41,194 bases of DNA. It comes from Candidatus Woesearchaeota archaeon. GTDB lineage: Archaea; Nanobdellota; Nanobdellia; Woesearchaeales; GW2011-AR9. The first letter of the stretch is position 1, and each line of letters begins with the position of its first letter. The translations under genes were made by a program, and so were the position numbers. The notes below the pieces were generated by a model. That model was not told the origin of the DNA. It worked only from the letters and a program-made list of their open reading frames with translations, and searched no databases. The DNA lies in contig JACPNA010000051.1 in the NCBI GenBank assembly GCA_016185725.1, forward strand, positions 1 through 41,194. Reading direction: 5' to 3'. Shown in pieces: positions 28,065 to 41,089 of this stretch.

Positions 28065-28814
28065 CTAGGGTGCAATTGCTTTCTCCCAAATAATCCAAAA
28101 ATGCATTTTATAGGCATCAGCAACTTGCTTATTTTTAATTAAAATAGACATGGGTTTTAGATCTTCCCGCTCATGCATAATGCTTATCGCTACCTCCTCA
28201 CCGCAGATAAATGTAGTAGCAGTATTATTGTTCTCTTGATTAAGACATTTCGCTTCTGTATAGGGTAAGGTATTAAGAAATCGTATCCGTTCCACGGCAT
28301 CTCTGTTATATAGATGATACATCATTTGTTTTTGTTCCGCTCTTCTTTTATGAATTACTTCTTGAAAAAATCTTCCTACCTTATCAATCGCAAATTTTGG
28401 TGCATCAATAGCAAAAATATCTTCCTTTAATTCTAAAAAATGCAAAAACATATTCCTAATATAATCATATCCCTCATAAATCTGTACGGTCTGCTCATTT
28501 TTATTTAATGTATTATTCAACTCTAATTCTGGAATAATCTTGTTCAATTTTATTTCTTTTTCCATCAATATATTTTTCAACATGGCTGGCGGTGAAGCTT
28601 GATATCCTTTTTTTCCTTCATATATCATCTCTGAAGCTAACCCCCGTTCTTTCAATCTCGCAATAGAATCATAAACATTAACTCGATGAATACCGCTTGC
28701 TTCTGCAATCTTTGTTGCAGAAGAAAAACCTTTTTCTATCAGTGAAACATATACCTTCGCTTCATTTTGCGAAAGGCCCAAACTCATTAAAACCTGTTCT
28801 TTCATTGTATACAT
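28065..28814 (-). CDS. TrmB-family transcriptional regulator
   Basis: The 249-residue protein has the N-terminal winged helix of TrmB/sugar-specific regulators: LMSLGLSQNEAKVYVSLIEK (about 9-28), ASGIHRVNVYDSIARLKERG (about 39-58) and YQASPPAMLKNILMEKE. A helical linker and a C-terminal ligand-like domain (about 105-249, QIYEGYDYIRNMF) follow. It reads away from the nine-gene signalling cluster, separated from it by 164 bases that contain an inverted repeat, so it is the natural candidate to control that cluster and itself. The ligand is unknown. Confidence 0.83.
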   Translation of the reverse strand: MYTMKEQVLMSLGLSQNEAKVYVSLIEKGFSSATKIAEASGIHRVNVYDSIARLKERGLASEMIYEGKKGYQASPPAMLKNILMEKEIKLNKIIPELELNNTLNKNEQTVQIYEGYDYIRNMFLHFLELKEDIFAIDAPKFAIDKVGRFFQEVIHKRRAEQKQMMYHLYNRDAVERIRFLNTLPYTEAKCLNQENNNTATTFICGEEVAISIMHEREDLKPMSILIKNKQVADAYKMHFWIIWEKAIAP

Positions 28815-28978: not shown

Positions 28979-30208
28979 ATGGCTTCAAAGACCTTGGGGA
29001 TTATCGGCAAGGGACCTCTTGTTGCAAATTTATTTAATTATATAACAAATTCTGCAGAAAATAAAGATTCCAACATAAATTTATTCTTTCAAGAAATATC
29101 TCATATTAACTTTTACAATTATGGTTATGAGAGTAAAGACCACTTTGAAAATTCACTAAGCTATCAAGATTTAATTTCAAAAATCCAACCTAAGATAACA
29201 CCTGAAGTTTCTGATTTAGGAAAATTTATTCAAAGTTCTAATATAATCCTAGACGCAGCTGGTGGTTATATATCTCGCCATGATAAAAAACTATCCGATA
29301 TCCAACCTTACACTCTTTATACATATGCAGAATCTAAATATAGTCCCAATCCTTCTCTTCCTTCTCTTTCTTTAGATTGCAATGCTGATTATGAAACATA
29401 TACAAAAAAAAAACATGAAAAAGGCCGTCTTATTTTTACGAAAGAAGAATTTCAAAGACAATGGGAATTTTCCCTGGCCTTGATTGAACAATTCCATGGT
29501 ATCGATAAGATATACCGCCAAAATCCTAAAGAAACTTCGCTCGGCTTTAGAACATATACGGAAGTACCGTTCACTGCGATGATGATGTTACAACGTGGCT
29601 TTGATATTAATCTGCAATTAACCAAATTGAAAGAAAAAGGCAACAAATTTTTACCTACATATTTAGTTGTTGTTAACGAACCATGTATCACTGCTACAGT
29701 ACTAACCAGTCAATGTCCTTCGCTTATTCCTTATACGGTTGCTTGTACTGGTTATGATCGAGAACGCTTAGAGGAAGTTCTTAATGAAGATGAATATTAC
29801 ACAGAAATAAGACATAAATATAATCTTGGTTGGCTTCAAGTTTCACTCCGCGGCTTCCATGACACTAAAGTTACTCTGCCTTTTATTTCAATTAAAGATA
29901 AAGATAGTAATACCTTCGTTGATAATCTGAATTTTAAAAACGCGTATCATTTCTTAAAAGAAAACGTAGGTCAATACTATTTAAAACAACCACCCACTAA
30001 ATCTAATCAACAAGTTAGTGCGCATTTAATACGTACCATTGTCAATGCTAGTCAAAGTCACAATAAACCCTTATCCATTTATCCCCCTATTGCCGAGCGT
30101 TCTCTAAATAATGGATTTTATCAACCCCTATTAAATAATGAAAGAGGCCTATTCTTAGTTGGTGAACATCATTTTATCAATGGAAAGGTGAAAGCTGATG
30201 AACTATGA
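28979..30208 (+). CDS. Lactate/malate dehydrogenase-like protein, divergent
   Basis: The 409-residue protein follows the LDH/MDH plan with weak but ordered matches: nucleotide loop LGIIGKGPLVANL (about 6-18), IILDAAGGYISRHDKK (about 88-103; compare ITAG.PR.PG.SR.D), VVVNEPCITATVL (about 230-242; compare V.TNPVD), ACTGYDRERLEE (compare G..LD.AR), and VSLRGFHDTKVTLPF (about 285-299; compare GEHGDS.VP). A roughly 80-residue insertion separates the second and third blocks. Catalytic residues are only partly kept, so it may bind NAD(H) or a related ligand as a sensor rather than act as an enzyme. It is first in the cluster and overlaps the next gene by 11 bases. Confidence 0.55.
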   Translation: MASKTLGIIGKGPLVANLFNYITNSAENKDSNINLFFQEISHINFYNYGYESKDHFENSLSYQDLISKIQPKITPEVSDLGKFIQSSNIILDAAGGYISRHDKKLSDIQPYTLYTYAESKYSPNPSLPSLSLDCNADYETYTKKKHEKGRLIFTKEEFQRQWEFSLALIEQFHGIDKIYRQNPKETSLGFRTYTEVPFTAMMMLQRGFDINLQLTKLKEKGNKFLPTYLVVVNEPCITATVLTSQCPSLIPYTVACTGYDRERLEEVLNEDEYYTEIRHKYNLGWLQVSLRGFHDTKVTLPFISIKDKDSNTFVDNLNFKNAYHFLKENVGQYYLKQPPTKSNQQVSAHLIRTIVNASQSHNKPLSIYPPIAERSLNNGFYQPLLNNERGLFLVGEHHFINGKVKADEL

Positions 30209-31286
30209 AGACTTCATAAAAAACGAAAGAGAATGCGCTGAAGATAAACTGCATAACTTATTGCGCAGCACTTTTTTTTATCTGCACAATTCATCTGCTC
30301 AGCCATTTGAAGACAACCCCCATTTAGAAACCTATTTTCCTCAGCTTTCAACACCAGAAGGATCAACCCTAAATTTCCCAAAAAATTATTTCGCGGTAAG
30401 CGGAAATAAGCTATTATTATACCAAGATAATGTAATTAAACAAGAAATATCCGCAAATATAACGCATATGGCAATATCTCCTCTTGAGGAGTTCCCTTAT
30501 CTCTTGTATGGGGGTGAATATAATTCTTTAGATTACTTAAAAATATCCAATATCATTGAACCTTCAGAAGAAAAAACAATTTCACTTCCGAGATATTATG
30601 ATGGTCAAAGCGCTATCAATTCCCTTGCTTTTTTTGAAGATAAATTATTTATTTCCCATAGTTCTCATGGCATAATTTTTCTTCCTCTAGAAAATATTTA
30701 TACTTCAAATAATATCCAAATTGACCCGCACGCGCACACAAATTTCCTTCATAAAAAAAATTCTCACTCTAAGATCCTAAGAATGTGCTCATCACCTTCT
30801 CAACTATTTTTCTCAGAAGACGAACAATTATATGCCTATTCTTCAAAAAAAGGCAAGACCGAATGTTCGCACTATCCTTCTAAAATAACTTCTTTATTTT
30901 CCTCTAATGCCGACATCTATGTTGGTTGTGAAAATGGCAGCATTCATAAAAATAAAACGGCAATAATTCCTCCTAATTCTCTTTCCCCTTCCGCAGTTAA
31001 AAAAATTAGACCGGTCATGGTTGACAGCTTCGAAGGAATTTTGTACACCTTACATCAACAGCCTCATCTTTTCTTTATGGATACGAAAAATAGAGAAACA
31101 AAATTTCTTTCCCACCCTTTAGCAACAATAATAGATTTTGATTATAATTTTAAACAATTATTAGTTTTAAACAGTAATACAGTAATCATTCAAAACGAAG
31201 AAAATTTGGGAAAAGAGAGTAATAATAAATTATTACTTGATAAAGATGTTATGTGGAAATATATTTGTTCCTACGGAGGCAATTAA
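30198..31286 (+). CDS. Probable beta-propeller protein 1 of the signalling cluster
   Basis: The 362-residue protein has no catalytic motif. After a helical N terminus (1-~45) it shows repeated short strands of the kind seen in propeller blades: NYFAVSGNKLLLYQDN, DKLFISHSSHGIIFLPLE, SQLFFSEDEQLYAYSS, ADIYVGCENGSIHKN, EGILYTLHQQPHLFFMD and KQLLVLNSNTVIIQNEE, about six or seven in all. Such domains usually present a ring for protein binding. No signal peptide, so cytoplasmic. The start overlaps the previous gene by 11 bases, implying translational coupling, and the kinase begins one base after its stop. Confidence 0.6.
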   Translation: MNYEDFIKNERECAEDKLHNLLRSTFFYLHNSSAQPFEDNPHLETYFPQLSTPEGSTLNFPKNYFAVSGNKLLLYQDNVIKQEISANITHMAISPLEEFPYLLYGGEYNSLDYLKISNIIEPSEEKTISLPRYYDGQSAINSLAFFEDKLFISHSSHGIIFLPLENIYTSNNIQIDPHAHTNFLHKKNSHSKILRMCSSPSQLFFSEDEQLYAYSSKKGKTECSHYPSKITSLFSSNADIYVGCENGSIHKNKTAIIPPNSLSPSAVKKIRPVMVDSFEGILYTLHQQPHLFFMDTKNRETKFLSHPLATIIDFDYNFKQLLVLNSNTVIIQNEENLGKESNNKLLLDKDVMWKYICSYGGN

Positions 31287-31287
31287 C

Positions 31288-32961
31288 ATGACAGAAAAAA
31301 TAATATTAATAGAAGAAAATGGCACCAAAACGTCTTATACTATTACTACAGCCAAAAATCAGAATAATCCTGGAAATACAGGCCATGATAATCTTGGAAA
31401 AACCGGAATAGTCTTTTTAGTTGAAGATAAGGATAGCCAGCGATTTGCTCTTAAAATTCACCAGCGTGGCGATGCGGCATTATTTAAGGCCAATGCTGAC
31501 AATATGAAAAAACAGAGCTATCCCGGCTTTGTAGAAATATACAAAGTAGGAACTGTTGATATAACTGCTGAGGTTGATAGTGATATGATAGATTTTAAAG
31601 ATAAAAATGCTCTACTTATGGAGTATGCAGGAAGCAATTTTGGCACGGCCCATAAATTTCTCCACCAAGTAGATCAACGAGTAGCCGAAGCCTTCAAATA
31701 CAAATCACTTTTAACCGCCTTGAAATATTTCACGCAACTTCATCATCCTTCTGGGAAAGGGAAAAAAGGCCGTGCCCATGGCGATTTTAATCAACGTAAT
31801 TATCTCTGCGGTTTTAATATTCAAGAATACTTAACTGAGGATAAAACCATCAAAGATAAAGCCGGTTTAGAGAAAAAAATGATTGAATGTGAATTAAAAC
31901 TTTGCGACAGCGCAGAAAAAGAAGAATTAGTTTCTCTCAGCAATCCGTCTTTAGCCGGCGATGATTTTTGGTTAACCAGCAAATTTACGTGGTCTTTTGC
32001 AAATAGTAGTATTGACCGCGATACCTACGCCGTTGGCTTTCTTGCCGCGTGGCTGCTCTCCAACACCAAGGGAACAATTGAAGCGCGTGACTACTTAAAA
32101 GAAGAATTAAACATCGATTTAGCCCAGTACAAAGAGGGAAAGTATTCTTTTTTGACTATGCAAGAATTACAGAATAAAATTAAGAACTATATCAAATTAA
32201 AAGTAAATTCCGAAAACTATTTTTTTATAGAAGATGATCACCGCCCTTCAACCAACGTATTTGTCCTAAGACCAGTAGATAAATTTTCTCAGTATTGTCT
32301 CCAGCAAGAGTTAAAAACGGCAGATGATTTTGCAACTTTTTATTGCACCAGCGATTATTCCTACATTAATATTAAAAAAAGATTAGGTTCAAACAGCAGT
32401 ACCGGAGAAGGAGACGAGATCAATACTCTGTTTAGTCAAAAAATTTATGATGGAATATCTTATTTGTGTTCTACAATAACCAAAAAAATAGATACAGAAA
32501 CTTCATTAATAAATAAACAACACCAACCAATCACTGAAAAAAATGAACTTGAAAGAAAAATTAAAAAAGAAGAAAACGAGCTATCTACCAATAAAAAAAA
32601 TTGGAATACAGTCCATTCTCAACTCTCTCCAGAGAATTATGAAGAATTAAATTCTCAATTAGAACATTTTAGTAAAGAGATAACAACGTGTAACAAAAAC
32701 ATTACCAATTATAATACAGATCTTAGTAACAAAAAGGAAACCATAGATAATATTAATCTACAAATACAATCAAATGATCTTGATTTGGAAGTTCAGGCAT
32801 TACAGTATCTATCACAAAAACCTTCGCCGAATATTCCTTCTTGCTTTGAATCTTTAACCAGCGATTACAAGACAAAAGCAGACAAGATTATTAAGGAGAC
32901 AATTTCAATAATTAAGGCTAGGGATTCAAGACTAAAACAATCGCAATCTAAAGATGACTGA
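31288..32961 (+). CDS. Protein kinase-like protein with coiled-coil tail
   Basis: The 557-residue protein has a divergent eukaryotic-like kinase domain (about 35-310): Gly-loop region LGKTGIVFLVED, Lys in FALKIH (K56), hinge LLMEYAG, catalytic loop HGDFNQRN (164-171, with D166 and N171 in place of HRD...N), and CDS (206-208) in place of DFG, keeping the metal Asp D207. DTYAVGFLAAWLL matches helix F. A helical coiled coil occupies about 405-520. The ATG at 31288 has GGAGG upstream; a longer frame reaching into the previous gene is not preferred. Predicted to phosphorylate Ser/Thr in the cytoplasm; partners likely include the neighbouring coiled-coil proteins. Confidence 0.78.
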   Translation: MTEKIILIEENGTKTSYTITTAKNQNNPGNTGHDNLGKTGIVFLVEDKDSQRFALKIHQRGDAALFKANADNMKKQSYPGFVEIYKVGTVDITAEVDSDMIDFKDKNALLMEYAGSNFGTAHKFLHQVDQRVAEAFKYKSLLTALKYFTQLHHPSGKGKKGRAHGDFNQRNYLCGFNIQEYLTEDKTIKDKAGLEKKMIECELKLCDSAEKEELVSLSNPSLAGDDFWLTSKFTWSFANSSIDRDTYAVGFLAAWLLSNTKGTIEARDYLKEELNIDLAQYKEGKYSFLTMQELQNKIKNYIKLKVNSENYFFIEDDHRPSTNVFVLRPVDKFSQYCLQQELKTADDFATFYCTSDYSYINIKKRLGSNSSTGEGDEINTLFSQKIYDGISYLCSTITKKIDTETSLINKQHQPITEKNELERKIKKEENELSTNKKNWNTVHSQLSPENYEELNSQLEHFSKEITTCNKNITNYNTDLSNKKETIDNINLQIQSNDLDLEVQALQYLSQKPSPNIPSCFESLTSDYKTKADKIIKETISIIKARDSRLKQSQSKDD

Positions 32962-34219
32962 ATATATAACTCTTACAGTGAAGGATCCTACTGCCAGCAG
33001 AAACAATGCCGGAATATATCTCTTAGATTACTCTCTCCCAGAAACTCTATTTAAGACTACTTCCGACCGGCCTAATATTCATTTTTCTCAAGGAAACGGA
33101 AAAAATGTTTATGCGATTCAATCATTGGGAAAGAAACTTTTCTTTATTACCCGCAGTCACTTTTATTCTTCCCTAATGGATAATAATAAACTTAAAACAT
33201 CTTGTAGTTTGTGGAATACATTATTTCCTGCTCCCGCAGAAAAATCACACCGTGATAACTTCGATTCTCTTTTTGACAACGAACAATTTTGTGGCAGTAT
33301 GAGTCAACAAGATAATCGCTTATTCGTTGCTGTTTACGCTGGTGACAAACTAAAATTAAATCCTTCTATAAACCTTAAATTACAAGAGGGGTTTTTATTT
33401 TGTTCAGAAAGCAATAATGATCATCTCCCCAATTTTAAATTATTAGAACAGGGAATAGAAGATTTTCCAACAGGCCAAGTAATCTCTATAGATGATCTAT
33501 TAATTTATCCCTCTTATGAGAAATTAGTTTCTTACAATTTAGATTCTCTAACTTCAGAGATTCTTCTAAGAATAAATAATTCTGATCTCCGTGATGATAT
33601 CGAGAACATTATCTGCTTTGACCATAAAAAATTTGCGGAGTATAATCTTTCAATATGTTGTGGAGCTCACGGAAGTTATTCTTTGTCTTGCAATGGTAAA
33701 GAAATAAATTCTATAAAAAAAAGACATTATCTGGATTTAAAGGATAATCCGCAACGGTTTTACCTGCCTTCCGAAGCTACTTCTGTACTATTGGTTGATT
33801 ATAATAATCAATTTTATACTTTATTTGGATGTGATGCCGGTAAATTATTGATTTATGAACTTGACATAAACAACAATAAACCTAAATTGACTTATCATAA
33901 AACTATCGATTTCCTTGCCTTAGATGACTTTTCTTATGGAAATAAGGATGATTATCTTTGGAATATCCGCTCTTTGCCTAATGCTGACGTTTGCTTCACC
34001 TTAAGAAATATTTTTATCAGAATATCTTTTCAAAATCTCTTAAACTACAATCCTCAACAAAGAATACAACAACTTAACAATTTCAACCTCGAAAAACCAA
34101 GAAAGGAAATAGAAACAGAAATAAATTCATATTTAAAAGATTTAAAAGATAAATATTCTTTGGGTGCGGCTTACTTACTGCCTTACCGCATCACTGATTG
34201 GCATATTTGGAGCGTTTAA
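32954..34219 (+). CDS. Probable beta-propeller protein 2 of the signalling cluster
   Basis: The 421-residue protein overlaps the kinase gene by eight bases. It lacks catalytic motifs, signal peptide and membrane helices. Repeated strand pairs such as KNVYAIQSLGKKLFFITRS, NRLFVAVYAGDKL, DDLLIYPSYEKLVSYNLD and QFYTLFGCDAGKLLIYELD look like propeller blades, and the last 50 residues are helical. It shows the same general style as the propeller at 30198-31286, though the two are not close copies. It probably works as a binding or scaffold subunit for the adjoining kinase and phosphatase. Confidence 0.55.
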   Translation: MTEYITLTVKDPTASRNNAGIYLLDYSLPETLFKTTSDRPNIHFSQGNGKNVYAIQSLGKKLFFITRSHFYSSLMDNNKLKTSCSLWNTLFPAPAEKSHRDNFDSLFDNEQFCGSMSQQDNRLFVAVYAGDKLKLNPSINLKLQEGFLFCSESNNDHLPNFKLLEQGIEDFPTGQVISIDDLLIYPSYEKLVSYNLDSLTSEILLRINNSDLRDDIENIICFDHKKFAEYNLSICCGAHGSYSLSCNGKEINSIKKRHYLDLKDNPQRFYLPSEATSVLLVDYNNQFYTLFGCDAGKLLIYELDINNNKPKLTYHKTIDFLALDDFSYGNKDDYLWNIRSLPNADVCFTLRNIFIRISFQNLLNYNPQQRIQQLNNFNLEKPRKEIETEINSYLKDLKDKYSLGAAYLLPYRITDWHIWSV

Positions 34220-34221
34220 AA

Positions 34222-35280
34222 ATGAAAAGCTATGTCTTAGAAGTTCCTGGAAAAACGCATAATTGCAATGAAGATTCTCATTATATTTCTCATTTCCAAA
34301 TCGATAATAAACCGGCCGGTCTCTTTATTATTGCTGATGGCTGCAGCGGTCATAATGGGACTAATGCCAGCCATTACGCCGTCAAAACCATAGGCTTTAA
34401 TTTAGAAGAAGAGCTTATCTGTTCTCAAGAAAAAACAAGAGAATCGGATCATCTTCAAAAATTAATATTGGACATTATTGACAAAACGAATAATAATCTC
34501 CATGACCACAGCTTGGGAAGAACAACTATTGACCTTCTAATAGTAATGGATAATGCTTATCACCTTGCTCATCTTGGCGACAGTCAAATTTATACTTTGG
34601 AAGGAAATAACTTGAACCTCTTAACTATTGACGAATCTGCTCATGGCGAACCAACCAATTATTTAGGACGAAAACTTATCGGTGAAAAATCCTTATCTGA
34701 ACGGATAACCATTCAGTCCTACCACCATTTACCTGCGGTCTTTTTACTTGCTACTGACGGCCTTACTAGCCGTGTTGCGTACACAGAAATAAAAACAATT
34801 ATTGACAAATATCAGAATGATGATCCTACGCTTATTCTGCCTGCGTTAGTGGATATTATAAAATATCCCTTCGAAAAAATAAAAACAATGTCTCCCTCTT
34901 TATTAAAAGAAATCGCCAAGAACAACCCACAGATAGAACCTGACAGCCCGGATTTTATTGATACTATCATTGCTGATTATAAGTCAATGCGCTATCCTTC
35001 CTTAAACAACCAATTGGATAATATCTTACCATTCGACGACGCCACTTTAATTTATATCGACTTCCAAGACCATTTTTCTTCATTTAAGACACAAATTGCA
35101 AAACTTACCCAAGAGCTGGCTGAACTATCTGAAAAATACGAAGTATCTAAAACACTAATTAATCAACTCACCGCAAAAAATAGTGATTACAACCAGGAAA
35201 TTGATTCCGCTGCAGACCTCTTAATACATTTTTATAGTGAAATGGTAAAAGCAACAAAAAATCTCCCTTTTAAAAAATGA
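34222..35280 (+). CDS. PP2C-type Ser/Thr protein phosphatase
   Basis: The enzyme removes phosphate from Ser/Thr with two metal ions. The 352-residue protein has the PP2C motifs in order: CNEDSHYISH (about 15-24), FIIADGCSGHNGTNASHYA (about 40-58), HLGDSQIYTLEGN (about 122-134), FLLATDGLTS (about 174-183) and DDATLIYID (about 272-280). A C-terminal helical coiled coil (about 285-352) resembles those of its neighbours. The ATG at 34222 is taken because it is two bases after the previous stop; an upstream TTG is not convincing. The stop overlaps the next start (ATGA). It would oppose the cluster's kinases. Confidence 0.9.
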   Translation: MKSYVLEVPGKTHNCNEDSHYISHFQIDNKPAGLFIIADGCSGHNGTNASHYAVKTIGFNLEEELICSQEKTRESDHLQKLILDIIDKTNNNLHDHSLGRTTIDLLIVMDNAYHLAHLGDSQIYTLEGNNLNLLTIDESAHGEPTNYLGRKLIGEKSLSERITIQSYHHLPAVFLLATDGLTSRVAYTEIKTIIDKYQNDDPTLILPALVDIIKYPFEKIKTMSPSLLKEIAKNNPQIEPDSPDFIDTIIADYKSMRYPSLNNQLDNILPFDDATLIYIDFQDHFSSFKTQIAKLTQELAELSEKYEVSKTLINQLTAKNSDYNQEIDSAADLLIHFYSEMVKATKNLPFKK

Positions 35281-35585
35281 ATGAAAAAAAAACACTAGCA
35301 GACATTATCTCGGTTTTGGAACAGCACTGCCAAGACACTGTCGTAAAATTGAAAGAATACTATCATGGCTATCATGAACTTAAAGAAATAAATTATCGTT
35401 TAGAAGAAGATTTAAAAATAAAAAAACGAGAGACAGATACTATCAAAGAACAATATAATCAACTCCAGATTAAATACGATACTCTTTTATCCGAACAAGA
35501 ACATATCAAAAATATTAGTCTTATAGCCGACTTCATGTCTTCACCTGCAGCTAATTATCCCCATCTCGAAAAAAATAATGAATGA
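35277..35585 (+). CDS. Coiled-coil protein with shared N-terminal module (soluble)
   Basis: The 102-residue protein starts with LADIISVLEQHCQDTVVKLK and EYYHGYHELKE (about 7-37), a module repeated in the next two genes, followed by a coiled coil (about 40-80). There is no membrane helix. The DNA for the module is nearly identical to that at 36590-36680, showing a recent duplication. The start overlaps the phosphatase stop by four bases and the end overlaps the next start by eight. It may be a soluble adaptor that pairs with the membrane versions through the module or coil. Confidence 0.75.
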   Translation: MNEKKTLADIISVLEQHCQDTVVKLKEYYHGYHELKEINYRLEEDLKIKKRETDTIKEQYNQLQIKYDTLLSEQEHIKNISLIADFMSSPAANYPHLEKNNE

Positions 35586-36531
35586 AAAAAACACCCTCCC
35601 CAAATTAATATCTAATATTGAAGTTCATTTTAGGGAGCACGCTGCACGATTAAAAGAATATCATTCTGCCTATGAAGACGTAAAAAAACAAAATAGTGCA
35701 TTAATCGAAAAAAATTCTCATCTCGATGTGGCATTAGAAAATATCAATACTAATCAGGGTATACTTCAAAATGAATATGATTCTTTGAAAAATAAGTACA
35801 GCAGCCTACTCGATAAAGTAAATAACTTATCTGCAGATAAAAATAGATTAAAAAGCAAAGTTGATCAATTGTACACGCAAATCAACAGCTTAAACAAAGA
35901 AAAACAATTATTGGATGATAATTTTTCTCTCTATACCAAAAAATGGCAGGAATTAGGCGCGCTTTATAACAGCATACAACCACAAGAAAAACAAAATAGA
36001 CTATCTCTTTTTAAAAATAAAATAATAGCCCATTCTTTGCCTTCTGTTATAACCGGAATAGTGACGGCTATTACTCTATTTAGTGTAATGGAATATATCC
36101 ATCCCTCATATTATCTTAAAACTACTAACAATTCTACTTCCAGTTTCGATGGTCATGATAATTTAATCCAACGGTATTTACACTTCATACCTAACAAGCC
36201 CACCATCGGGATTTTGTCAGAACAAGTAAGTAATACAGATAGCAATACACTCTTAACACAAAGAAATAAGCAGTTAGAAGAATTTTTGATAGTATCAGAA
36301 ACAAAAGATAAAGAATGTAGATCACAACTAGAAAAAGATAATGAGAATTACTCAAAATGCAAATATACCCTCGATGAAAATGAAAAAAAAGAAAAAGAAA
36401 ATAAAAAGAAGGAAGAAGAGAAAAGAAAGAAAGAAAGAAAAGGAAAAGAAAATAAAAAGAAAGAAGAAGAGAAAAGAGAGAAAGAAGAAAAAGAAAAAAA
36501 TAATCCCCCGATAATAACTCCAAATGATTAG
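35578..36531 (+). CDS. Coiled-coil membrane protein with charged tail
   Basis: The 317-residue protein carries a diverged copy of the shared module (LPKLISNIEVHFREHAARLK, about 6-25), a long coiled coil (about 35-140), one membrane helix (about 153-175, LPSVITGIVTAITLFSVMEY) and a further helical region. It ends in a Lys/Glu-rich repeat (KKEEEKRKKERKG and similar, about 260-308) that may form a rigid single helix. With the N terminus inside, as the soluble paralogue suggests, the charged tail would be outside the cell. The AAAGAAG-type DNA repeats in the tail are prone to length change. Confidence 0.75.
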   Translation: MNEKNTLPKLISNIEVHFREHAARLKEYHSAYEDVKKQNSALIEKNSHLDVALENINTNQGILQNEYDSLKNKYSSLLDKVNNLSADKNRLKSKVDQLYTQINSLNKEKQLLDDNFSLYTKKWQELGALYNSIQPQEKQNRLSLFKNKIIAHSLPSVITGIVTAITLFSVMEYIHPSYYLKTTNNSTSSFDGHDNLIQRYLHFIPNKPTIGILSEQVSNTDSNTLLTQRNKQLEEFLIVSETKDKECRSQLEKDNENYSKCKYTLDENEKKEKENKKKEEEKRKKERKGKENKKKEEEKREKEEKEKNNPPIITPND

Positions 36532-36566
36532 CAATAAGAAAACAATACCATTTATCACAATAAACC

Positions 36567-37052
36567 ATGTCCAAAAAACAACCATTAACAGACATCATAT
36601 CCGCTCTTGAACAGCATTGCCGAGACACTGTCGTAAAATTGGAAGAATACTATCATGGCTATCATGAACTTAAAGATAGAAATTTTCAACTAACGGCAGA
36701 AAAAGAAAAATTAATGATAAAAATATCTGAATTAGAAAAAAAAACAAAACAATATAAAAAAACAAATTTGATTGTTGGGGGAACATCTCTGGCAATAATT
36801 ATATTTCTGGTGGCATATTATTTTAATAAAGACAATACCTCTGGACAAATCAGATATGAAGACATAACCCAGAATTGTCGTCCTTTAAAAGGATCTGAGT
36901 ATAACTATCTCTGCAAAGAAGGACAATTATGCGACACCTTTAAAGTTTGTTTCCCTCATGGAGAAAAAAAACAGGCCTATTTAAGCAGATGTATTGTCCA
37001 TCAAAATACGGAAGTTTGCAATTATCTGCCTATCGAAAAAAATAAATGGTAA
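36567..37052 (+). CDS. Membrane protein with shared module and Cys-rich outer part
   Basis: The 161-residue protein starts with LTDIISALEQHCRDTVVKLE and EYYHGYHELKD, almost the same as the soluble protein at 35277-35585, then a short coil, a membrane helix (about 66-86, NLIVGGTSLAIIIFLVAYYF) and a C-terminal part with seven cysteines (about 102-153). Those cysteines probably form disulfides outside the cell. It thus joins the cytoplasmic module to an outer sensing or binding domain. Its ATG is 35 bases after the preceding gene, the only sizeable gap in the cluster, and its stop overlaps the membrane kinase start. Confidence 0.75.
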   Translation: MSKKQPLTDIISALEQHCRDTVVKLEEYYHGYHELKDRNFQLTAEKEKLMIKISELEKKTKQYKKTNLIVGGTSLAIIIFLVAYYFNKDNTSGQIRYEDITQNCRPLKGSEYNYLCKEGQLCDTFKVCFPHGEKKQAYLSRCIVHQNTEVCNYLPIEKNKW

Positions 37053-39697
37053 CCAAAATGCGCATATCTACTATCAAAAAAGAAAATATCGCACAAACAA
37101 TACCTTCGAACAGTCGTGGAACTTTTACCAATCGTTATATTCTCGAATTAAATGACGGGTCACGCATTTTCACAAAAACACATACCTCCAGCAGTTTCTG
37201 TCCACCCATAACTTCACGGCATACTCTCGAAAATGAAATTATAGTCCAAGAATTTTTAGCGCAAAATAATATTGGCGATAGCTTATATCTTGGCTTCAAT
37301 GAAATAGATGATATTCGCTGTGTCTTCTTTCGAGAAATACCGCATCAACAAAACGGAAAAAACCTTGCGGAAAGAATCGGATCTAGTAAATTTACTGATG
37401 CTCAATATTCCTACTTTGAGCAAAAAAAAATAGATCCTTGTACTAAAGTAACTACTGCTAATAATCGTACTTTTTCCTTAGAACAGGTAATTGATATTAT
37501 TGATCAAATTGCTTCACGCACTGAAGCTATACATCAAGCAGGTGTTATTCACATGGATATATCCTTAGACAATATCCTCTTGCTTGATGAAAAAGATGCG
37601 CAAGGACAAATTAAAACCAAGGCCATTTTAGGTGATTACAGTATCGCTAGAAAAAAAGACCAGCCGATAAAATCATTATTTAGTGGGAGCGAAATAATTG
37701 ATGTAAATAAGAATAAAGTATATGGTTACTCCCCAAAAATTCATCTGCATAATAATATTTACAAGCCAAATGATTACGAATCATATAAAATCGCCGAACC
37801 TAATTATGACACTTATTGTTTAACTAACATTCTCTGCATATTATTGACTAATAAGCTTATTGAATACTGGAAAGAAAAATCAACTACACAGGAAGAACTT
37901 CAAAATACTTTAATAGAACAGATTCAACAAAAAAGAACTGAAAACTCTTCCTATAATAGGGAAACATACAACAAATTAGCTGAAATTATCATCAGAGGAA
38001 CATCTCGCAAAGACCAACGCTACCAAACAGCCCAAGAGCTGTTTAGCCAATTAAATGAATTAAATATTTCTAAGCCCGCCTTCTCAAAACCAAATTATCT
38101 TTTAATAATTACTGATCGAGAAAAAACTAACGTTTCAAAATCAAAACCAATTCCCATCTCTTTAAACAGTAATTTAGATAATACTTTCGAAAAAAACATC
38201 TCTCCCCATACAGAATTTTTTGGAAATTTGAAAGGACGAACAAAAAAATATATCTCCACTTCTACATTTAAAGAGACCGTCATTGGAATTATCGCAACTG
38301 CCATGCTTGCCGCTGGTTCTTTCGGGATATATGAACTATTAAATAATAATTCTCCCCGCTTACCGGCAAAAACCCAGGAAGAGCTGAAAATAAATTACCA
38401 CAAAAAGAAGCAAGAAGATTCAGCAACAGCTTCTTTACAACAGCAACTCCTCGCTCTAGAGAACTATTCCAATTCTCTTTCTAATACTAATACTAATAAA
38501 AATAGAATTCCCGACAAAAAAATAGATAGTGATATTTACCAACCAAAAACAGATGCTCTTGCTGAAAAAATAGAATCAACAATCAATAACCCCAAATATA
38601 GCCATGGAAATAAAAATACAGATGATGGTCAATTCGCCAAGAAACCAATATCAGCCTCTCCTTCTGCATATTCTTCAACATCTTCTAAAAGAAAACAGCC
38701 CTTTGAAAAGTCATTATCTGAAGATAAACAACCCGTACCATCGCCACTACCTCAACCCACGCCTTTACCGCTTCCAAAATTAGAATTAAAGATCTCTGGC
38801 CTAGATAAAATACCAACTTATGGAGATGAAGTGTCTTTAAAATATATCTTAACAGCAGATGGAACAGAAATAAAAGATTATCATTGTGAATTAAATATAG
38901 ATGAAGAGATAGTTAATTTTGGCAGATTGAAAAATGCATATAATCATTTAACATTCACCATCCCCATCTATCTCAGAAAAAATGAACCATCTAAAGTGCT
39001 AAACGGCAGAACTGCCAAAATTAAATTTACCTGTGCTCATCAATCGTCTATAATAGAAAAAAATATCGAAATAAAAATAAGACCAAAATATACCCTCTCT
39101 CCTGGCGTTGAAAAAATAATAAAACCGCAATTGAACATAAAAATTGGAAAAGAATATCTTCCGCTCAGCTCAGGCGATCGTTGTTATGGATGCTCCGTTA
39201 TTATTAATGCTCAACATGAATGTAATCTCATTGATGAAAAATTTGGTTTTAATTCCTATCATCTGAGAAATGGCATTTATAGATTAGACAGTCAAGAAAA
39301 AATAAGTGGTGAACACGACGCCAATTATAACTTAAGTATACGCTGCAAAAAAAATAACGAACCAGTTTTTTATGATTACTGGCATCATATTCGTATAAAT
39401 CCTCACGAACTTACTGCCCAAAGTTCTAGTCAGATTAAACCATTGGATGAGATAGTTGCTCTCAGTTCTGGAGAGACATGTAAACAATGTCGCATAGTAA
39501 TAGATTCTCCGGAAGAAGTTAACTGTAGCACTAGTAAAAAAAATTACGGATTTTATTTGTCAAAAAAAGCAGAAAGAGTCTATTTAATTGATCGGAACAC
39601 TTCTGGCAATGAACTTGGCGAAGAACACACCTTAACTATAAACTGTGAAGGGATAGGCTCACGAGCAGTCCATTTCTTCATAAATCCTAAAAAATGA
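37046..39697 (+). CDS. Transmembrane protein kinase with large outer beta-rich domain
   Basis: The 883-residue protein has a divergent kinase domain (about 25-345): Lys in IFTKTH (K44), catalytic loop HMDISLDN (169-176), and GDY (196-198) for DFG, helix F near YDTYCLTNILCIL. After a linker comes one membrane helix (about 411-431). Next is a Ser/Pro-rich low-complexity region to about 585, then an Ig-like domain (about 590-690) and two related units beginning CYGCSVII (about 712) and CKQCRIVI (about 811), each with a later Cys. The layout recalls bacterial PknB-type receptor kinases (kinase inside, sensor outside) but the outer domain is different. The ATG at 37046 overlaps the preceding stop; ATG 37058 is an alternative. 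Confidence 0.78.
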   Translation: MVTKMRISTIKKENIAQTIPSNSRGTFTNRYILELNDGSRIFTKTHTSSSFCPPITSRHTLENEIIVQEFLAQNNIGDSLYLGFNEIDDIRCVFFREIPHQQNGKNLAERIGSSKFTDAQYSYFEQKKIDPCTKVTTANNRTFSLEQVIDIIDQIASRTEAIHQAGVIHMDISLDNILLLDEKDAQGQIKTKAILGDYSIARKKDQPIKSLFSGSEIIDVNKNKVYGYSPKIHLHNNIYKPNDYESYKIAEPNYDTYCLTNILCILLTNKLIEYWKEKSTTQEELQNTLIEQIQQKRTENSSYNRETYNKLAEIIIRGTSRKDQRYQTAQELFSQLNELNISKPAFSKPNYLLIITDREKTNVSKSKPIPISLNSNLDNTFEKNISPHTEFFGNLKGRTKKYISTSTFKETVIGIIATAMLAAGSFGIYELLNNNSPRLPAKTQEELKINYHKKKQEDSATASLQQQLLALENYSNSLSNTNTNKNRIPDKKIDSDIYQPKTDALAEKIESTINNPKYSHGNKNTDDGQFAKKPISASPSAYSSTSSKRKQPFEKSLSEDKQPVPSPLPQPTPLPLPKLELKISGLDKIPTYGDEVSLKYILTADGTEIKDYHCELNIDEEIVNFGRLKNAYNHLTFTIPIYLRKNEPSKVLNGRTAKIKFTCAHQSSIIEKNIEIKIRPKYTLSPGVEKIIKPQLNIKIGKEYLPLSSGDRCYGCSVIINAQHECNLIDEKFGFNSYHLRNGIYRLDSQEKISGEHDANYNLSIRCKKNNEPVFYDYWHHIRINPHELTAQSSSQIKPLDEIVALSSGETCKQCRIVIDSPEEVNCSTSKKNYGFYLSKKAERVYLIDRNTSGNELGEEHTLTINCEGIGSRAVHFFINPKK

Positions 39698-41089
39698 TTA
39701 AATATTCTTTTTTACCATCTCATACAATATTTGTTCATCACCGTTAAGATGCTCCCCTTTTATTTCTTTTAATCTCTCCCGTCTTTCATATAATCCCATT
39801 GATAACAATTTGCCATCTTTACTTCCTACAAGCAAATCGCAGTAATCCTTAAATTGCCGGTTGTCGCTTTCCACTCTCAGCACTCTTGCTATATCCCTGA
39901 GCCCGCGAAAATTAATCTTACCAGATTCCAAATATTCTTCAAATCGTTCTAGAAAAGCATCATAGTATTCCATTTTATCATTAATTTTTTCTAATTCCCC
40001 GCATAGTTCAGTATTGTTCAATAATTGGGCATATCCATTAAATATACTTAATCTATATCTCTCATCGGCAACACTTAATCTCAAATATAATCCTTCATCA
40101 ACATTCTTAACTTTATCTTTTACTAGTTCACCGCATTCTTTTTTTCTTTGCTCTTTAAGAAAAATTAATTTTTCTCTGGTGTATTCATAGTTTTGTCCAA
40201 CCAATGCAAGATATATGCTGCCACGATCATCAAATTTATTCTCGGCATCTTCCGAGCAAATACATTCTAAATATTTTCTGTCCAATGATAACCCTTCACC
40301 AAGCATATTTTTAACTATTTCTAATTTCTCCAACTCCCGCATTATTTTCTCTCTCTCCCCTAAATACTTAACGGGATCATTAAGAATGACCCTTAAATCA
40401 TCACTAATTTTCTTCGCTTCTGGAATCAATTCTTTATTAAAAATTAATTCTACTTTGTCTCCTTTTTTCAATTTATTTTTTTGCCGTATCTCCTGTTTAG
40501 TTGCCGCCTCATTGTCTAAAATACGATCAACTTGCACCTTCCACGAATACAACTGCGCAATCGACTCGCAACTCGCATACCATCTGTACAAATCATGTTT
40601 ATTTATCTTGCTAAACTCTCCTAACATTGCTAAATCTAAATATAAATCATTTAACTTTAATCTATTTTCAATCAACCTCTTATCAAAAAATTCACAATAA
40701 GAATACTGTTGACACAAATGAATAATTTCTTTAACATCATCAAAACCACTTTCCTTATTAAGATTATTAATCTTATCTTCCACTTCTCCTTCTAAAAACA
40801 CTAAATCATTGTATCGTGAATTTAATTCATACTCAATATTATTTAAAGCTTTATCTGCATTATTTAAAACTATATTCCGCAAATGATTACTGCTATCACC
40901 ATCATAATTTATAATATAATCTCTGCAACTTCTTATTTTTTCTTGTATACCTACAAATAATTTAGAACTAACATCTTCAGTTTTAATAAGAACTTTTAAT
41001 TCCTCTTCTCTTTTAATGATTTCTTCTAGCTTTGTTTTATTTATTATCCAGTCAATATACTGATCTTCCATACTTAATATTTTCATCAT
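39698..41089 (-). CDS. Long helical coiled-coil protein, convergent with the cluster
   Basis: The 463-residue protein is almost wholly helical and charged (MEDQYIDWIINKTKLEEIIK at the start, ELEKLEIVKNML in the middle), with heptad patterns but no membrane helix or catalytic motif. Its stop lies directly beside the last base of the membrane kinase gene, so the two transcripts must overlap. Its start overlaps the stop of the partial upstream gene by one base (TAATG). The style resembles the coiled-coil proteins of the neighbouring cluster, so it could be a further component on the other strand; that is inference. Confidence 0.7.
   Translation of the reverse strand: MMKILSMEDQYIDWIINKTKLEEIIKREEELKVLIKTEDVSSKLFVGIQEKIRSCRDYIINYDGDSSNHLRNIVLNNADKALNNIEYELNSRYNDLVFLEGEVEDKINNLNKESGFDDVKEIIHLCQQYSYCEFFDKRLIENRLKLNDLYLDLAMLGEFSKINKHDLYRWYASCESIAQLYSWKVQVDRILDNEAATKQEIRQKNKLKKGDKVELIFNKELIPEAKKISDDLRVILNDPVKYLGEREKIMRELEKLEIVKNMLGEGLSLDRKYLECICSEDAENKFDDRGSIYLALVGQNYEYTREKLIFLKEQRKKECGELVKDKVKNVDEGLYLRLSVADERYRLSIFNGYAQLLNNTELCGELEKINDKMEYYDAFLERFEEYLESGKINFRGLRDIARVLRVESDNRQFKDYCDLLVGSKDGKLLSMGLYERRERLKEIKGEHLNGDEQILYEMVKKNI

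Follow-up and report, generated by a model that had tools for sequence, protein, structure and literature searches.

A nine-gene cluster in the window

The window analysed here, a 41,194-nucleotide stretch of DNA from a Candidatus Woesearchaeota archaeon (contig C45 of a 1.03-Mb genome that is 97% complete), carries nine plus-strand genes at positions 28979-39697 that mostly overlap according to open reading frame (ORF) calling. They encode a lactate dehydrogenase (LDH)-like protein, two beta-propellers, two kinases, a PP2C phosphatase and three paralogs with a common N-terminal module (Table 1). The original prediction, made from the sequence alone, had described them as a candidate undescribed signalling system with one soluble and one receptor-like kinase and with genes nearly all overlapping or 0-2 bases apart, and its protein types were upheld by Pfam and NCBIfam matches, AlphaFold2 (AF2) models, Foldseek searches and alignments. 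The ORFs, their strand and their spacing agreed as well (junctions of -11, +1, -8, +2, -4, -8, +35 and -7 bases, in order), except that the widest junction, between the second and third paralogs, spans 35 bases. The window stops at the contig end (41194), 105 bases beyond a convergent gene; this gene and a divergent TrmB gene belong to the system too. The nine genes thus stand as a real recurring unit, but an incomplete one: they make up half of an island of two operons, and the other half, with its twin AAA+ ATPases, was missed by the original prediction because it is not identifiable from the window alone.

Table 1. Genes of the island in the window, with the evidence for each assignment (TM, transmembrane segment).
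Feature	Position	Strand	Basis
TrmB-family transcription regulator, divergent from cluster	28065..28814	-	Pfam TrmB 2.5e-14
LDH/malate dehydrogenase (MDH)-superfamily protein	28979..30208	+	AF2 + Foldseek; alignment A3
Beta-propeller 1	30198..31286	+	family profile vs beta-propellers
Soluble Ser/Thr kinase 1, C-terminal coiled coil	31288..32961	+	catalytic residues; orthologs match PF00069
Beta-propeller 2	32954..34219	+	AF2 + Foldseek
PP2C phosphatase, C-terminal coiled coil	34222..35280	+	Pfam PF13672; NCBIfam Stp1; motifs
Tag/coil protein 1 (102 aa), common N-terminal module only	35277..35585	+	59% identity over 63 aa to 36567-37052
Tag/coil protein 2: module, coil, one TM (about 153-171), charged outer tail	35578..36531	+	
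Tag/coil protein 3: module, one TM (68-86), Cys-rich outer domain, 6 Cys outside	36567..37052	+	
Receptor-like kinase 2	37046..39697	+	PF00069; TM + Cys counts
Coiled-coil protein, last gene of relatives' convergent AAA+ operon	39698..41089	-	blastp to G026, G031

The gene order recurs in other genomes

When 49 genomes of the family were searched with the LDH-like protein, seven carriers were found, own genome included, and within the reach of their contigs the six others share one order: divergent TrmB, LDH-like, propeller 1, kinase 1, TPR, propeller 2, PP2C/coil, one or more coil/TM proteins and TM kinase. The divergent TrmB is present in five of these six neighbourhoods, and the TPR gene, usual in the relatives, is absent from the window. 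In a second family, three genomes (G118, G120 and G121) contain LDH-like, propeller 1, kinase, propeller 2 and PP2C genes in matching order, together with a TPR gene in G118, while nine more carriers in seven further families mostly have the LDH-like protein fused to a propeller-like part, with a kinase and usually a PP2C gene downstream. All 19 carriers possess a same-strand kinase gene downstream of the LDH-like gene, and the distribution covers at least nine families within one order. Evenly drawn searches of 378 genomes of the class and 371 genomes of the phylum gave no LDH-like carrier outside this order, and a scan of genome contigs with the LDH-like protein returned only relatives already known. 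Most of the genomes are metagenome-assembled, and contigs break within the islands.

Recurrence of the order in other DPANN genomes, which the original prediction had proposed as its test, was therefore observed in six genomes of the family and three of the second, and the genes were not scattered in relatives but kept their order. This recurrence puts the cluster far beyond chance, and the block is almost certainly a real multi-gene system.

A convergent operon encodes two AAA+ ATPases

In the four relatives whose contigs extend far enough, the cluster is followed by a convergent operon consisting of small TM proteins or other genes, a coiled coil, AAA1, AAA2 and a coiled-coil protein, the small N-terminal TM proteins preceding the AAA genes. 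The convergent gene at the end of the window matched the gene in the same position beside an AAA gene in G026 (L018; blastp 2e-16) and in G031 (8e-9), and the genes upstream of it would fall past the contig end. AAA1 is a classical AAA ATPase (PF00004, 3e-29 in G031, with a bpMoxR match of 0.002), while AAA2 is AAA+-like, with a Walker A GK, conserved Glu, Asn and Arg, and weak DUF5906/Mg_chelatase matches; the G026 contig ends inside AAA2. Searching 338 genomes of the order with AAA2 gave about 25 strong matches, and a profile of 24 AAA2 proteins gave 14 strong matches among the 371 phylum genomes, all of them within the window's order. Whole-order AAA2 matches near E 1e-4, in which only the P-loop stretch matched, were rejected as general AAA similarity.

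A recurring plan was found around AAA2, with coil, AAA1, AAA2 and coil on one side, TrmB in between, and on the other side an LDH-like protein (711-918 aa, with an extra C-terminal part), PP2C, kinase and others. It is clearest in G095, G207, G250, G130 and G351 (the last without PP2C), and in five islands the TrmB regulator lies between the LDH-like/kinase block and the AAA operon. Profile searches with the C-terminal halves of the distant fused proteins did not match propellers; these halves are read as propeller-like from their position, their strand-rich sequence and the direct fusions elsewhere. LDH-like proteins of at least 400 aa occurred in 16 of 26 AAA2-positive genomes (7 by profile A3 and 9 by A8) versus 0 of 34 AAA2-negative genomes (Fisher 3.6e-8), a comparison in which the AAA-positive side is inflated by a distant LDH-like profile built from AAA neighbourhoods while the zero in the AAA-negative genomes is unaffected. 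Matches in the latter are enzymes of ordinary size (312-322 aa).

The window's TrmB is 50-70% identical to the cluster-side TrmB of four relatives and at most 35% identical to other TrmBs, which include all those of six genomes without an LDH-like gene. Judged by these identities, the island TrmB is an island-specific clade of its own.

Some islands contain additional genes. The island at L109 3931-9447 (G207) encodes an E1/ThiF protein (1.3e-33) along with a JAB-like one, and may encode small ubiquitin-like proteins as well. An Mrr-type restriction-endonuclease-like gene lies near the AAA operon or ahead of the LDH-like gene in several islands (L042 3668-4351, L043 5260-5841, L093 2789-3541, L094 4723-5253 and L100 14799-15329).

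LDH-like protein and propellers

For the AF2 model of the LDH-like protein (pTM 0.72), all top Foldseek matches were LDH/MDH chains (E 1e-6). Alignment A3 of ten orthologs showed N233, R263 and H294 to be invariant and D260 to be present in nine of ten, residues that correspond to the LDH N140-, R171- and H195-like positions and to D168, respectively, and a Gly-rich GxxGxG motif is present near the N-terminus. The catalytic D and R are also invariant in six distant fused homologs, five of which have the GxH motif, and the N-terminal parts of these six proteins match L-2-hydroxycarboxylate/lactate/malate dehydrogenases in a profile search (2.7e-13). A profile link from A3 to the distant fused proteins became strong enough only when the alignment was restricted to their N-terminal parts, which matched the window family across the catalytic region (hhalign probability 92.7, E 4e-7). 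The catalytic residues are retained despite large divergence, and the LDH-like protein is a core part keeping the LDH catalytic residues, with a putative dehydrogenase activity.

The family profile of propeller 1 matched designed and PQQ beta-propellers (E 2e-10). In G020 and G118 the LDH-like protein and propeller 1 are a single polypeptide (fused ORFs at L013 2951-5305, 784 aa, and L043 6977-9772, 931 aa), and this fusion directly supports that the two form a physical unit. Propeller 2 gave no match in a sequence search, and its AF2 model (pTM 0.81) matched WD40-type propellers in Foldseek (E about 1e-7). The assignments of both propellers and of kinase 1 rest on families or models. In G001, propeller 2 (L012 4035-5918, minus strand) has an insert resembling a peptidoglycan-binding domain and no obvious signal peptide.

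Kinases and phosphatase

Kinase 1 of the window had no Pfam kinase match by itself; its orthologs match PF00069 (E 1e-8 to 2e-12), and the Lys, the HxD Asp, the Asn and the DFG-position Asp are invariant in ten orthologs. Its start is most likely the ATG at 31288 and not the first listed TTG at 31237. Kinase 2 matches PF00069 in Pfam (E 1.1e-6), and the catalytic Lys, HxD Asp, Asn and DFG Asp are present in six aligned sequences. Its kinase domain lies inside, followed by one TM (411-429) and a beta-rich outer part that contains two LSSGxxCxxC repeats, and 10 of its 15 Cys are outside; phmmer found no relative of this outer region, and Pfam no PASTA match in the protein. The phosphatase matches PF13672 (E 1.9e-9, Pfam) and the Stp1 family (E 2.8e-20, NCBIfam), and the metal-binding motifs NxD, DGxSG, GDS, TDG and DDAT are present in the window protein and in nearly all full-length homologs. 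One PP2C has its coil in common with another coil protein of its island. By their motifs, the kinases and nearly all PP2C homologs are intact-looking as catalysts. The original proposal of an archaeal kinase/PP2C system that includes scaffolds and a kinase facing outwards is supported, here in Woesearchaeota-related DPANN.

Pfam detects just one further kinase in this genome (L017 398-1474, on contig C61). Close to it are two TM-anchored proteins, each about 1,100 aa long, and a TrmB-like gene (27% identical).

Tagged proteins and their outer domains

The three window paralogs have an N-terminal module of about 60 aa in common and then diverge (blastp E 4e-20 and 9e-9), and the two that had been taken for membrane proteins each have a TM segment. 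G010 and G031 each have their own common N-terminal module of 40-60 aa, and six proteins of G133 carry a different tag. In G089, 17 island proteins begin with one roughly 14-residue motif (like DSVRxRIDDLL) against a background of 0 of 595 other ORFs, the latter being the informative figure as the pattern was defined after the tag had been seen. Past the tag, the G089 proteins include right-handed beta-helices, TM proteins and soluble proteins, some of them related to each other, and both beta-helix and FG-GAP-like domains occur among tagged proteins. The paralogy of the coiled-coil proteins held, but it is one case of a wider theme in which unrelated proteins have a common short N-terminal tag. 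The islands thereby display a membership feature of effector-associated domain (EAD) systems, namely one small adaptor ending several unrelated neighbours. In G010 a six-Cys outer domain is carried both by the TM kinase and by tag/coil TM proteins, and in G026 by tag/coil TM proteins.

Other proteins near the islands combine a signal or TM segment at the N-terminus with a long beta-strand-rich C-terminal part (L020 161-1423 and L021 7509-9161, both minus strand; L085 6545-7933, minus strand; L086 14868-16211; L102 13261-14595). They look outer-membrane-barrel-like by eye, and several end in an aromatic residue, which is odd in archaea from which no outer membrane is known.

Fast divergence and changing neighbours

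SRP54 adjoins the island in the window and lies on other contigs in relatives. In a genome of the same genus it is 82% identical and on a different contig, versus about 20-38% identity for the cluster proteins, indicating that the island is a fast-evolving unit with changing neighbours. Viral contig scans with the LDH-like protein and AAA2 gave no relative, nor did tblastn of one AAA2 against phages, and a virus or plasmid origin was rejected after these searches. In the genome of the same genus, L060 55-6000 lies upstream of the island and encodes a protein of 1,982 aa in which PEP-synthase-like stretches are repeated.

Interpretation

We tentatively favour a model in which the nine genes are half of a conserved two-operon island that encodes a phosphorylation-controlled hub for tagged clients, many of them envelope-anchored. 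The kinases, one of them a receptor, would phosphorylate tagged and coiled-coil clients, and PP2C would reverse this. The propellers, the TPR protein and the LDH-like protein would form a docking platform recognising the tag or the phosphorylated form, with the LDH-like domain gating the hub by NAD(H)/2-hydroxyacid level. The two AAA+ ATPases would then load, remodel or dismantle client assemblies, and the variable outer domains would contact something outside, plausibly a partner cell, while TrmB would switch both operons jointly. A role in envelope sensing or contact is an inference. In favour of the hub count the recurrent order, the convergent AAA operon, the kinase downstream of every LDH-like gene, the co-occurrence of AAA2 with long LDH-like proteins, the tags of the islands, the six-Cys outer domain on both a TM kinase and tag/coil proteins, and the coil that one PP2C has in common with another island protein. 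Several observations weigh against the hub. Three AAA2 profiles and a single protein did not find the AAA genes in the window's genome, where a contig break or a real loss may account for their absence, and in some genomes (e.g. G212) AAA2 and the LDH-like gene lie on separate contigs. The inflated AAA-positive side of the co-occurrence count has to be added. The tag differs between lineages, so that a common docking role comes from the pattern only, and in one genome many tagged proteins are without a TM segment, making the envelope not the sole site.

Alternatively, the island could be an inducible conflict or defence system, in which the AAA+ pair, the propellers and kinase/PP2C control the recruitment of effectors via N-terminal adaptor tags, and the envelope proteins serve as sensors or pore-like effectors. 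Most of its wiring is shared with the envelope hub, and we regard it as rather improbable. It would account for the patchy occurrence of the LDH-like gene in seven of 49 family genomes, for the fast divergence of the cluster relative to SRP54 and the different neighbourhood of the latter, for the Mrr-type gene of some islands and the E1/ThiF and JAB proteins of one, and for a tag architecture like that of EADs, of which a bacterial FtsH/propeller/ubiquitin-like variant exists (PMC7159879). However, no vWA, GTPase or STAND NTPase was recognised in the scanned proteins, no PADLOC defence system appeared beyond generic domain matches, and many clients carry TM segments with outer domains or beta-helices in place of known effector domains.

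A host-contact organelle or adhesion system of episymbiotic DPANN, with tagged TM and beta-barrel-like proteins as a surface apparatus whose assembly on contact is controlled by the kinases, PP2C and the AAAs, seems to us unlikely. The outer Cys domains common to receptor kinases and tag/coil proteins, the beta-helix and FG-GAP-like domains on tagged proteins, the barrel-like proteins that carry TM or signal segments and lie close to several islands, and the small N-terminal TM proteins ahead of the AAA operon would all fit such an apparatus. By contrast, the many tagged proteins without a TM do not, and a minority of order genomes carry the island, so it answers no general need of the lifestyle.

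Very unlikely is a metabolic sensor or regulator, with the LDH-like enzyme as main output or sensor and kinase/PP2C tuning central carbon or redox metabolism. The LDH catalytic residues are conserved, TrmB regulators often sense sugars, and a gene like that of the FAD-dependent L-2-hydroxyglutarate oxidase LhgO adjoins four islands (L012, L013, L016 and L099), but the twin AAAs, the tag families, the receptor ectodomains and the fast divergence are left unexplained. The LhgO-like proteins (L012 11070-12185, L013 5391-6512, L016 4147-5316 and L099 11689-12786), recognised by eye beside islands of two families of genomes, are a possible metabolic link to the LDH-like protein. Finally, chance neighbourhood without joint function, for which nothing but the usual operon noise speaks, has a negligible probability and is already contradicted by an order conserved across families while SRP54 moves, by gene fusion and by co-occurrence.

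DPANN archaea depend on other cells, yet little is known of the ways in which they sense and manage contact. The island joins eukaryote-like kinase/phosphatase signalling to AAA+ machines and a dehydrogenase-like core. Since a short N-terminal tag marks the clients, they can be listed from sequence, and the wiring can be tested by ordinary biochemistry. Stated in full, the envelope hub would be an archaeal NAD/2-hydroxyacid-gated, phosphorylation-controlled AAA+ machine assembling or deploying interchangeable tagged envelope proteins, a new class restricted to one order of small episymbiotic archaea and possibly serving cell contact, a claim to which we give a fairly low probability. Should the island be a conflict system instead, it would extend the bacterial NTPase/EAD logic to archaea with a new core.

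Comparison with known systems

The view that the cluster matches no already named system held in Pfam, NCBIfam, PADLOC and the literature searched, with subscription papers and preprints largely outside it; a described system matching the island was not found here. Identity with a known defence system was rejected, as significant PADLOC matches reflected kinase, PP2C, AAA or E1 domain similarity, besides a few weak sub-0.001 matches to coil regions. The closest outline is that of the bacterial MoxR-vWA ternary and other NTP-dependent conflict systems with EADs, a group that has classical AAA (FtsH), propeller and ubiquitin-like variants and in which a kinase-PP2C-vWA theme is less frequent (PMC7159879). 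An AAA+ engine, beta-propellers, TPRs, occasional ubiquitin-like conjugation, small adaptors on several neighbours and patchy, fast-evolving loci are common to both. However, Pfam and NCBIfam scans of the window cluster and selected island proteins gave no match to vWA, the defining feature of the MoxR-vWA systems, and AAA2 is not assigned to MoxR. The LDH-like/propeller core is absent from the text of PMC7159879 ('lactate' has 0 occurrences), and the island's kinase and PP2C are constant where those of conflict systems are occasional effectors; its clients are in many cases envelope proteins, and it is archaeal. The island is therefore not filed as a member of these systems.

Other kinase/PP2C systems correspond to parts of the island. 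TerY-P triads of vWA, kinase and PP2C have the latter two in common with it, but the island has no recognised vWA (TerY) and many other constant parts, and the threonine phosphorylation pathway of type VI secretion (PpkA-PppA-FHA) is likewise a kinase/PP2C switch over a surface machine, with FHA and secretion components that were not recognised in the island. The LDH-like protein resembles the L-lactate/malate dehydrogenase superfamily in fold and catalytic-type residues, whereas it is very divergent and longer, has large insertions or a propeller fusion, and lies in a signalling operon. The Stk/Stp systems of bacterial cell-envelope control (PrkC-PrpC, PknB-Stp) also feature an adjacent Hanks-type kinase and Stp-like PP2C and one single-pass receptor kinase with an outer domain. 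By contrast, the window kinase lacks a PASTA match, and the archaeal island ties the pair to LDH-like, propeller, AAA and tag proteins. The Stk/Stp-type kinase/PP2C pair is a module inside the island.

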